A DNA stretch of 35,993 nt from an uncultured Bacilli bacterium (GTDB lineage: Bacteria; Bacillota_I; Bacilli_A; RF39; UBA660): positions 1 through 35,993 of the forward strand of contig CALVUM010000012.1 of assembly GCA_944363605.1 (NCBI GenBank), given 5' to 3'. The notes under the pieces were generated by a model that saw only the letters and a program-made list of their open reading frames with translations, made no database searches and was not told where the DNA came from. A program made the translations under genes and the position numbers. Positions within the stretch are counted from its first letter, which is position 1. Each line of letters begins with the position of its first letter. Positions 16,203 to 18,321 of this stretch are shown piece after piece.

Positions 16203-16285
16203 TTAAAAATACGGGCTAAAATGGAAGATTTATTTGGTAGAAAAAAGAAAGCCATTTTTATACAATAATTTTGGAGGTGTCAAAA

Positions 16286-16732
16286 ATGACTTTAGGAAAA
16301 AGCTTGTTTCAAGCAAGAAAAAAAGTGGGGTTAAGCCAAGAAAATGTCGCGGAAAAAGTAGGAGTGAGTAGGCAAACCATTTCAAAATGGGAGACCGATG
16401 AAACAATTCCCGATATTTATATGGCTAAAAAATTATCTAAAGTTTATAAAATATCTTTAGATGAACTTATTGAATTTGATGTGAATCAAAAGGAAATAGA
16501 AGAAGTGATTAAAAATACAAATGAAGAAAAAGAAGCAAAGATTAATTGGACAAATGCTTGGGGAAAAAAATATCCTATTTTACGTGAGTATCAAAATAAA
16601 GTAAAAATAGGAGAATATAAAAAACAAATTCGTGAAATGTTAGAGCATTTAAAAAAAGAATATTATTTAAACGATTTAGATAGTATGCTTGTTTTAAAAG
16701 ATATTTTATATCACGAGTGGAAAGATAGATAA
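16286..16732 (+). CDS. XRE-family transcriptional regulator
   Basis: 148 residues from ATG 16286. The longer TTG start at 16271 overlaps the GGAGG ribosome binding site. Residues 1-65 form an HTH_3 domain (LSQENVAEKVGVSRQTISKWE). The remainder is a helical, charged region (about 75-148) of unknown function with no transmembrane segment. The next open frame, the ABC-F leader peptide, begins 26 bp downstream without a terminator, so regulator and ABC-F gene are probably one operon. Confidence 0.88.
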   Translation: MTLGKSLFQARKKVGLSQENVAEKVGVSRQTISKWETDETIPDIYMAKKLSKVYKISLDELIEFDVNQKEIEEVIKNTNEEKEAKINWTNAWGKKYPILREYQNKVKIGEYKKQIREMLEHLKKEYYLNDLDSMLVLKDILYHEWKDR

Positions 16733-16758
16733 AAATTAAAAAAATGGAGGTGTGTAAA

Positions 16759-16782
16759 ATGAATAGTTCTACAAATAAGTAG
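16759..16782 (+). CDS. 7-codon upstream ORF (MNSSTNK) of the ABC-F gene
   Basis: ATG 16759 has a perfect GGAGGTG ribosome binding site (16746-16752). It ends at TAG 16780-16782, whose last G is the first base of the leader hairpin. It lies 36 bp before the ABC-F start. Such a well-placed site for a heptapeptide suggests a leader peptide that controls translation of the ABC-F protein. Confidence 0.5.
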   Translation: MNSSTNK

Positions 16783-16818
16783 GCATAAACTTTGATTATG
16801 CCAGATTGGAGGCATAAT
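16782..16818 (+). promoter_or_regulatory. Competing hairpins that can mask the ABC-F ribosome binding site
   Basis: Three short segments can pair in two exclusive ways. A (16782-16788, GGCATAA) pairs with B (16796-16802, TTATGCC): 7 bp, 7-nt loop. B extended (16795-16802, ATTATGCC) pairs with C (16811-16818, GGCATAAT): 8 bp, 8-nt loop. The B-C stem contains half of the ABC-F ribosome binding site GGAGG (16808-16812) and ends at its ATG. A-B leaves that site free. All pairings are exact. That this regulates translation is inference. Confidence 0.55.
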
Positions 16819-18321
16819 ATGTTTGAAATAGAAAATTTGGATATCTATATTTATCCAAGATATCTTATAAAAAATTTATCTTTAACTTTAAATAAAGGAG
16901 ATAAACTAGCCATTATTGGTGAAGAGGGAAACGGAAAAAGTACCTTATTAAAAGCTATTTTAGGAATTGCCAATTATGCATCAGTAACTGGAAAAGTCCA
17001 TTTTCACGGAAATAAAGTTGGGTATCTAGAACAATCATTAGATGAAAATACTTTAATGCAAACAAGTAAAGAGTTTCTTTTTAAAAATGAAAATGATTAT
17101 TATGAAAAAATTGGTACCTTTTATAAGTATTTAGAAATATTTGAGTTAAATGAGAAAATACTAAATCAACCACTTCATACTTTATCTGGTGGAGAAAAAG
17201 TCAAAATAAGAATGTTAAAACTTTTTTTAGAAGAAGTAGATATCTATATTTTAGATGAACCAACCAATGATTTAGATATTGCCTCATTAGAATGGTTAGA
17301 AAAATTTATTAAAGAAACCGATAAGCCAATTATTTATGTATCTCATGATGAAACATTACTTGCAAATACAGCGAATAAAATTCTTCATTTAGAACAGCTT
17401 AAGAAGAAGATGGAGCCTCGGCATACTTTAGAAAAGATAGATTACGATACGTATGTCAAAGAACGGCTACGAAAAATTACACATCAAACACAAATAGCGA
17501 AGTTTGAAAAAAAAGAATTTAAGAAAAAAAGTGCAAAACTAGAAAAAATAAGACAAAAAGTAGAAAGAGAACAAAACACAATTTCTAGAAGCGATCCACA
17601 TGGAGCTAGACTTTTAAAGAAAAAAATGCATAATGTAAAAGCTCAAGAAAAAAAATTAGAAAACACCAATTTAACACCAATTCCAGATATTGAAGAAAGT
17701 ATTTTCTTTGCTTTTGAAAAAGTTGCTATTCCTAAAACAAAAAGAATTCTTAAAATAGATCTTCCAGTACTTGAAGTTCCAAATAAAGTATTAGCTAAAA
17801 ATATTCATTTAGATGTCAGTGGGCCAATGCACTCTTGTATTATAGGAAAAAATGGAAGTGGAAAGACTACTTTATTAAGAAAAATTAAAGAGGAATTAGA
17901 AAATAGAAAAGATATAAAATTAGGTTATATGCCTCAATTTTATGAAGAAGTTTTTAAAGATTATGAAACCGTGTTAGATTTTATTTCTAAAGGAAAAAGT
18001 AAAGAGGAAATAACAAAAGCCAGAATGTATTTAGGAAACATGAATTTTACTAGTGATGAGATGACTGGAAAAATTTCTAATTTAAGTAATGGTACAAAAG
18101 CAAAACTTCTGTTAATGAAGTTTGTCTTAGAAAAATGTGATGTTTTATTATTAGATGAACCGACAAGAAATGTAAGTCCTTTATCAAATCCTGTAATTAG
18201 AAAAGTTTTAAAAGAATTTGATGGAACAATCATTTCTATATCTCATGATCGAAAGTATTTAGAAGAAGTTATAGATAAAGTATATCTTTTAACAGAAAAT
18301 GGGTTAATAGAACAAAGATAA
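16819..18321 (+). CDS. ABC-F family ATPase (ribosome-protection/translation factor type)
   Basis: 500 residues from ATG 16819, which has GGAGG at 16808-16812. A longer TTG start at 16792 is less likely. Two ABC domains lie in one chain without transmembrane segments. Domain 1 has Walker A GEEGNGKST, signature LSGGEKVKI and Walker B ILDEPTNDLD. Domain 2 has Walker A GKNGSGKTT, a degenerate signature LSNGTKAKL and Walker B LLDEPTRNVSPLSNP. A lysine-rich linker of ~90 residues (about 195-290) is the interdomain arm that reaches into the ribosome. Some ABC-F proteins confer resistance to peptidyl-transferase antibiotics, others assist translation. The drug spectrum cannot be predicted here. The leader described upstream would suit an inducible resistance factor. 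Confidence 0.92.
   Translation: MFEIENLDIYIYPRYLIKNLSLTLNKGDKLAIIGEEGNGKSTLLKAILGIANYASVTGKVHFHGNKVGYLEQSLDENTLMQTSKEFLFKNENDYYEKIGTFYKYLEIFELNEKILNQPLHTLSGGEKVKIRMLKLFLEEVDIYILDEPTNDLDIASLEWLEKFIKETDKPIIYVSHDETLLANTANKILHLEQLKKKMEPRHTLEKIDYDTYVKERLRKITHQTQIAKFEKKEFKKKSAKLEKIRQKVEREQNTISRSDPHGARLLKKKMHNVKAQEKKLENTNLTPIPDIEESIFFAFEKVAIPKTKRILKIDLPVLEVPNKVLAKNIHLDVSGPMHSCIIGKNGSGKTTLLRKIKEELENRKDIKLGYMPQFYEEVFKDYETVLDFISKGKSKEEITKARMYLGNMNFTSDEMTGKISNLSNGTKAKLLLMKFVLEKCDVLLLDEPTRNVSPLSNPVIRKVLKEFDGTIISISHDRKYLEEVIDKVYLLTENGLIEQR

Follow-up and report, generated by a model that had tools for sequence, protein, structure and literature searches.

The ABC-F gene of the DNA stretch analysed here (the window, 35,993 nt in length, which is contig C12 of a 1.52-Mb draft genome) is preceded by a short conserved leader that, on balance, probably acts in cis as a purely translational attenuator of this ribosome-protection-type gene, with an inverted logic. 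In its more detailed version, which we put forward tentatively and at slightly less than even confidence, the element would be a three-segment, terminator-free attenuator with a pseudoknot placed one ribosome footprint from the leader AUG, in which translation of the leader represses the gene, and arrest at the leader start or loss of leader translation induces it. The mechanism is based on conservation, pairing, geometry, calculated energies and the absence of a terminator.

Organization of the locus

A preliminary description of this DNA had proposed a leader ORF, three segments A, B and C and the ABC-F start. The positions of all of them were borne out on a coordinate check (Table 1), and the sequence gives the 7 bp described for A:B and the 8 bp described for B:C, the latter reaching the base before the ATG. 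The core of B is TTATGCC (16796–16802), and A16795 brings its pairing with C to 8 bp. Segment A shares its first G (16782) with the leader stop codon, from which the ABC-F start is separated by 36 nt in the window and by a few tens of nt across leaders. The repeat GGCATAA-N3-12-TTATGCC occurs a single time in the 1.52-Mb genome; the window has no Rfam match at gathering score, and there is no Rfam family for the element. On the upstream side, an XRE-type regulator gene (16271–16732, + strand) ends 13 nt 5′ of the leader SD. A search of the upstream region found no promoter for the leader of the window; TATAAT boxes lie ~30–45 nt upstream of the leader in a number of homologues, with an overall score barely above that of shuffled sequences.

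Table 1. Parts of the leader and the ABC-F gene in the window
Feature	Position	Strand	Basis and remarks
Leader SD, GGAGGTG	16746–16752	+	Sequence; strong SD in all 53 leaders
Leader ORF, ATG..TAG, MNSSTNK-stop	16759–16782	+	Orthologues have 3–9 codons, mostly Met-Arg-
S1 5′ strand, AAGT; proposed partner ACTT 16789–16792 (pseudoknot)	16777–16780	+	43/54 leaders, all four pairs standard in 43/43; persists in leaders with a shifted stop codon
Segment A, GGCATAA; 5′ strand of A:B	16782–16788	+	Sequence, orthologous leaders
S1 3′ strand, ACTT; 5′ side of the A:B loop	16789–16792	+	Pairing across leaders
Segment B, ATTATGCC; partner of A or C	16795–16802	+	Sequence, orthologous leaders
ABC-F SD, GGAGG	16808–16812	+	Sequence
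Segment C, GGCATAAT; overlaps the SD and runs up to the ATG; predicted to close the site with B	16811–16818	+	Sequence, orthologous leaders, energies
ABC-F ATPase gene, 500 aa, ATG at 16819	16819–18321	+	ORF, fold comparison

Two RNA forms are proposed to compete for B. In the open form, A:B (7–9 bp) would leave the ABC-F SD free and would, in most leaders, be stiffened by a 4-bp AAGU:ACUU helix (S1) into an H-type pseudoknot. In the closed form, B would pair with C, a segment that takes in the last bases of the SD and continues to the AUG. Which of the two forms prevails would depend on the short leader ORF.

The best NCBIfam match of the gene product is the ribosomal protection-like ABC-F family NF000355, at 294 bits, below the cut-off of 380. 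Its AlphaFold2 model (pLDDT 92.5) has two ABC domains and a long PtIM helix pair (residues 209–254 and 260–281), and no membrane part. The closest folds are those of VmlR2, VgaL, VgaA-LC, Sal(B), VmlR and LsaA (Z 34.7–36.8), with EttA slightly behind at 34.1, gaps under 1 being read as ties. Since the modelled fold is nearest to those of resistance ABC-F proteins, a role in resistance is plausible.

Conservation of the element with its gene

Orthologues of the ABC-F protein at 50–66% identity are present in 56 of the 386 genomes of the family, with more in the order and class. A motif parse of their upstream regions gave 66 leaders, 54 of them distinct, and an arrangement equivalent to that of the window stands before the orthologous ABC-F gene in 53–54 distinct leaders from many genera. 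Position by position, a standard pair is formed in 51–54 of the 54 leaders for A:B and in 50–54 for B:C; leader by leader, 6–7 of the 7 pairs are kept in each of the two helices. In L068 and L070, all three segments are altered jointly (GGTATAA, TTATACC and GGTATA) with pairing intact, and changes in other leaders mostly keep pairing as well, with G-U changes in, e.g., L011, L012, L018, L039 and L050. The covariation of A, B and C in homologous leaders, on which the preliminary description had staked its proposal, is thus found where the segments vary. Strong conservation of the sequence leaves few true double changes (for A:B, a single pair position, in L068 and L070); likewise, owing to near invariance of the sequence, MAFFT/RNAalifold on the stop-to-start region recovered only A:B and little covariation. 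Nearly all leaders that have B retain CATAA between SD and ATG.

Over the 386 family genomes, a covariance model of the element (R1) gives matches above 31 bits solely before this ABC-F gene or fragments of it, and gene and element therefore form a dedicated pair. Candidate occurrences before other genes were rejected, the inspected hits of ~31 bits or less being SD-plus-ATG look-alikes or fragments. With the once-per-genome repeat, the conservation and the exclusivity of the R1 matches, the arrangement is far from a chance one.

Six relatives (L042, L046, L051, L069, L079 and L083) lack the leader or the hairpins (A and B). L079 is the only one of the six with GCATAA between SD and ATG; it has kept the C-like spacer alone, and a TATAAT precedes the start by ~20 nt, as though expression had become constitutive. 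In the close orthologue L083, the GGCATAA switch is gone, and a short leader is followed by a terminator-like hairpin (AATGAGT..ACTCATTTTTTT) with a U-tract, which suggests a change to transcription attenuation. In L149, L153 and L154, the ABC-F gene is apparently broken (deletion, early stop or rearrangement), and the leader element or a remnant of it persists. Phage records gave no match, plasmid hits were distant relatives only (the top one Vga-type at ~30% identity), and a search of genome contigs returned one useful distant relative.

Transcription attenuation, or pausing of RNA polymerase at A:B or B:C, could also be the main control: transcription attenuation is established for vmlR, msrD, vgaA and lmrC (PMC9226507, PMC10314930, PMC12421871), and L083, with its hairpin and U-tract, offers an example among the relatives. 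However, none of the 54 leaders has a U-tract after B, no terminator-like site was found on the + strand of the window, and A:B is the form that is open for the SD; we hold this alternative to be very improbable. B:C is followed by five or more T within 8 nt in three of the 54 leaders. A terminator-like call on the − strand (16802–16782) was rejected, as it is the A:B inverted repeat itself. The preliminary description had contrasted a translational switch here with transcription attenuation at ABC-F genes. This contrast was drawn too sharply, the distinguishing traits here being the absence of a terminator and the proposed inverted role of leader translation: msrA, also an ABC-F gene, is controlled by translation attenuation (PMC8615237) and cplR adds a translational layer to transcription attenuation (PMC10201436).

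Leader ORF and ribosome geometry

A leader ORF, whose conservation the earlier proposal depended upon, is present in 53 of the 54 leaders. It has 3–9 codons (median 6), a strong SD and an ATG start, with TTG in one leader, and its stop lies at −7 to +5 nt relative to A (53/54 leaders); codon number and frame vary, and the stop remains next to A. Of the 53 peptides, 38 have Arg and 5 have Lys as residue 2. Because the peptide is variable beyond this residue, it argues for a putative ruler and start-codon sensor and not for a specific arrest peptide. The uORF consensus of cplR is MR[I/M] (PMC10201436).

The edge of a ribosome on a start codon gives a toeprint at +16 (PMC9226507), and start-stalled ribosomes end at +16 to +18 in Ribo-seq (PMC12121999). 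We set the edge at +16 for the start codon and, for the stop codon, at the first base of the P-site codon +15, with footprints taken from other species. The first paired base of the open form then lies at +17 or beyond from the leader AUG in 53/53 leaders, the minimum being exactly 17, and a ribosome at the leader stop covers 5–7 of the 7 nt of A, again in 53/53. It stays short of B in 52. In the window, S1 is at +19, A at +24 and B at +38, and the edge of the terminating ribosome at +34. The geometry fits both placements envisaged beforehand, namely that a ribosome finishing the peptide covers A and that one at the leader start leaves A free. In the shortest leader, L018 (three codons), S1 is lost and A starts at +18. 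L057 (MRIIVTSLA) is the only leader with its whole stop codon inside A, and there the terminating ribosome would reach B.

Leader termination might instead be coupled to the ABC-F start, by reinitiation or unfolding, in which case leader translation would activate the gene. The short distance from leader stop to ABC-F start and the strong leader SD speak for this. Yet, in 52 of 53 leaders, a terminating ribosome stays short of B and so cannot open B:C, and the mean calculated opening cost is highest with the ribosome at the leader stop (see below), which leaves such coupling distinctly unlikely.

A predicted pseudoknot in the open form

The AAGT that lies at, or overlaps, the leader stop is complementary to the ACTT on the 5′ side of the A:B loop. 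Together with A:B, the geometry is that of an H-type pseudoknot with S1 of 4 bp, S2 of 7 bp, L1 of 1–2 nt, L2 of 0 nt and L3 of 2–4 nt, and these loops are allowed. The 43 leaders with S1, all forming the four standard pairs, include TAGT:GCTA (L057, with one T-A/A-T swap), AAGT:GCTT (L019) and GAGT:ACTT (L032 and L082). Under one criterion, S1 was observed in 40 of the 54 leaders, versus a mean of 8.4 (maximum 15) for upstream shuffles and of 30.9 (maximum 36) for swaps of loops between leaders. AAGT is retained in spite of a moved stop codon in L001, L034, L041, L048, L087 and L088. ACTT is missing too from ten of the 11 leaders without AAGT, and in most of these the A:B stem is 8–9 bp long and not 7. 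On the protein tree, both strands of S1 change jointly in about five of six changes, the supported branches being too few for a significant sign test. The open form is likely to be an H-type pseudoknot. The preliminary description had drawn it as a simple hairpin: its A:B pairing stands, but with S1 in 43/54 leaders the simple hairpin probably gives way to the pseudoknot.

The A:B loop is conserved beyond the need of the stem, as would be expected if a protein or small ligand read the hairpins and the short ORF were incidental. S1 pairing accounts for the conservation of the loop, however, and the stop codon stays beside A despite varying codon number and frame. We regard such a reader as extremely improbable, and as the least probable of the alternatives considered.

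Folding energies and pairing of the upstream region

The isolated A:B and B:C hairpins are near isoenergetic (means of −8.1 and −8.3 kcal/mol), and in ribosome-free RNA both forms are about equally populated, in calculations made without the pseudoknot, whose inclusion would further favour the open form. Averaged over 53 leaders, opening the ABC-F start region costs 5.1 kcal/mol in free RNA, 3.8 kcal/mol with a start-stalled ribosome and 8.8 kcal/mol with a ribosome at the leader stop; in the latter state, the mean probability of B:C is 0.88 and that of A:B 0.006. The energies of both folds, a check suggested in the preliminary description, thus fit the logic proposed there. As the two forms are equally stable without ribosomes, repression must need frequent leader translation or kinetic trapping of B:C; ribosome occupancy in the cell, and such trapping after leader termination, are what we infer here.

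By the classical erm/cplR logic, an upstream segment would hold A in drug-free cells, and a stalled leader ribosome would cover that segment, free A and open the SD. Known systems are laid out in this way (PMC10201436, PMC9226507); relatives from another family (L095, L097 and L104) have a leader-ORF segment that pairs downstream, and the leader of the window itself can form CUAC/GUAG. Against this, 52–53 leaders show no upstream pairing excess for A or B. The folding free energy of A with the 24 nt before it is the same as that of shuffles (mean z 0.03, n = 52). Neither A nor B shows excess pairing when tested against the leader ORF, the initiation region and the upstream 60 nt (mean z 0.03, 0.02, −0.21, −0.21 and −0.36; 52–53 leaders). 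For duplexes that A, B or C could form with the initiation region or with the upstream 60 nt, the energies show no appreciable difference from shuffles, in a test in which the controls A-B and C-B gave z of about −3.8. Nor was a 5′ hairpin enclosing the uORF found in the upstream-pairing tests. Because there is no such excess, the data do not support a device that would keep A hidden as long as its partner is not covered by a stalled ribosome, and we consider such a device unlikely. A local AAGT...ACTT hairpin that would hide A (an erm-like 1:2) was also rejected, there being no free-energy selection for upstream pairing of A, and was re-read as the pseudoknot.

Proposed mechanism

In the translational attenuator that we favour, a ribosome at the leader stop would cover A, together with S1, and not B, upon which B:C would form and the gene would be off. 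A ribosome on the leader start, which would end at ~+16 and at least 1 base before the open structure, would allow A:B to form or stay, and the gene would be on; in the absence of leader translation, the site would stay open. The expected inducers are drugs that stop initiation or the first peptide bonds (pleuromutilins, lincosamides and streptogramin A); protection against these drugs is known for several of the solved ABC-F proteins that come nearest. If this mechanism is true, mutating the leader start would make expression constitutive, in contrast to the ABC-F and erm leaders that have been tested.

Comparison with known systems

Like cplR of Clostridioides difficile, the element has a very short uORF, often Met-Arg-Ile, before a pleuromutilin-lincosamide-streptogramin A-type ABC-F gene, whose SD is sequestered in the repressed form (PMC10201436). 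However, the cplR leader includes an intrinsic terminator as well as a 5′ hairpin in which the uORF is held; the window element has neither, and its segment A comes after the leader stop. Mutation of the uORF start renders the cplR reporter inactive (PMC10201436), and the opposite is predicted for the window element. vmlR of Bacillus subtilis (uORF MIN) likewise combines a short uORF for drugs that stall initiating ribosomes, a sensing that is predicted here, with an SD-sequestering hairpin; it deploys an anti-antiterminator, a pause hairpin and a terminator over ~219 nt, whereas the window element consists of three segments in ~60 nt, and induction of vmlR needs uORF translation, the inverse of what is predicted here (PMC9226507). 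With ermC and msrA, the element shares alternative hairpins at the SD and a leader peptide, but in those systems the drug-stalled ribosome covers segment 1 and frees segment 2, and segment-1 pairing was looked for here and not found. Among erm-type features, the element has a leader ORF with its own SD and an SD engaged in one of two exclusive hairpins, and lacks the upstream segment 1; among cplR/vmlR-type features, it has the very short uORF suited to start arrest (3–9 codons), and lacks the intrinsic terminator and the uORF-enclosing 5′ hairpin.

In trp-type attenuation, segment 2 is covered once the ribosome has reached the leader stop, and 3:4 forms (off); a ribosome held earlier lets 2:3 form (on). 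The logic proposed for the window element is alike, but the element would act on the SD and not on a terminator, has no segment 1, and would sense start-codon arrest instead of a scarce amino acid. In repY/repZ of IncI plasmids, leader termination allows the pseudoknot and switches translation on, whereas at the window element it would break the pseudoknot and switch the gene off; in both cases, the next gene is (or, here, would be) translated under the control of leader-peptide termination and an RNA pseudoknot. The repY/repZ pseudoknot switch goes back to Asano and Mizobuchi (1998, cited in PMC10724649).

In L095, L097 and L104, the last ~90 nt before the ABC-F start form a four-segment leader, in which a segment within the leader ORF (e.g. 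ACAAAAGTCTAT) has a downstream pairing partner, followed by GGATATAGA:TCTATATCC and by GATAC:GTATC at the SD. L022 and L105 have a short leader and an AU-rich A:B hairpin followed by a T run, with B complementary to the SD, an equivalent three-part plan in unrelated sequence with a possible weak terminator. L100, L101, L106, L108 and L110, from a further family, have three-codon leaders (MRI, MRF, MKF and MKN) and a CTCAT..ATGAG hairpin over the SD. Because more distant relatives of the ABC-F protein carry such other devices, the element is, as these leader sequences read, a local variant in a protein group with several kinds of uORF control.

Significance

Among the intrinsic sources of resistance to drugs that act on the peptidyl transferase centre, ABC-F genes are a major one, and the known ABC-F leaders mostly depend on transcription terminators. 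If the proposed mechanism is true, a conserved ~60-nt switch that works by translation only, in a large uncultured gut group, would be a simpler reading of start-codon arrest. The sharp genetic prediction that a mutation of the leader start would turn the gene on sets the element apart from the ABC-F leaders tested so far, and the element could act as a small sensor of initiation-arresting drugs.
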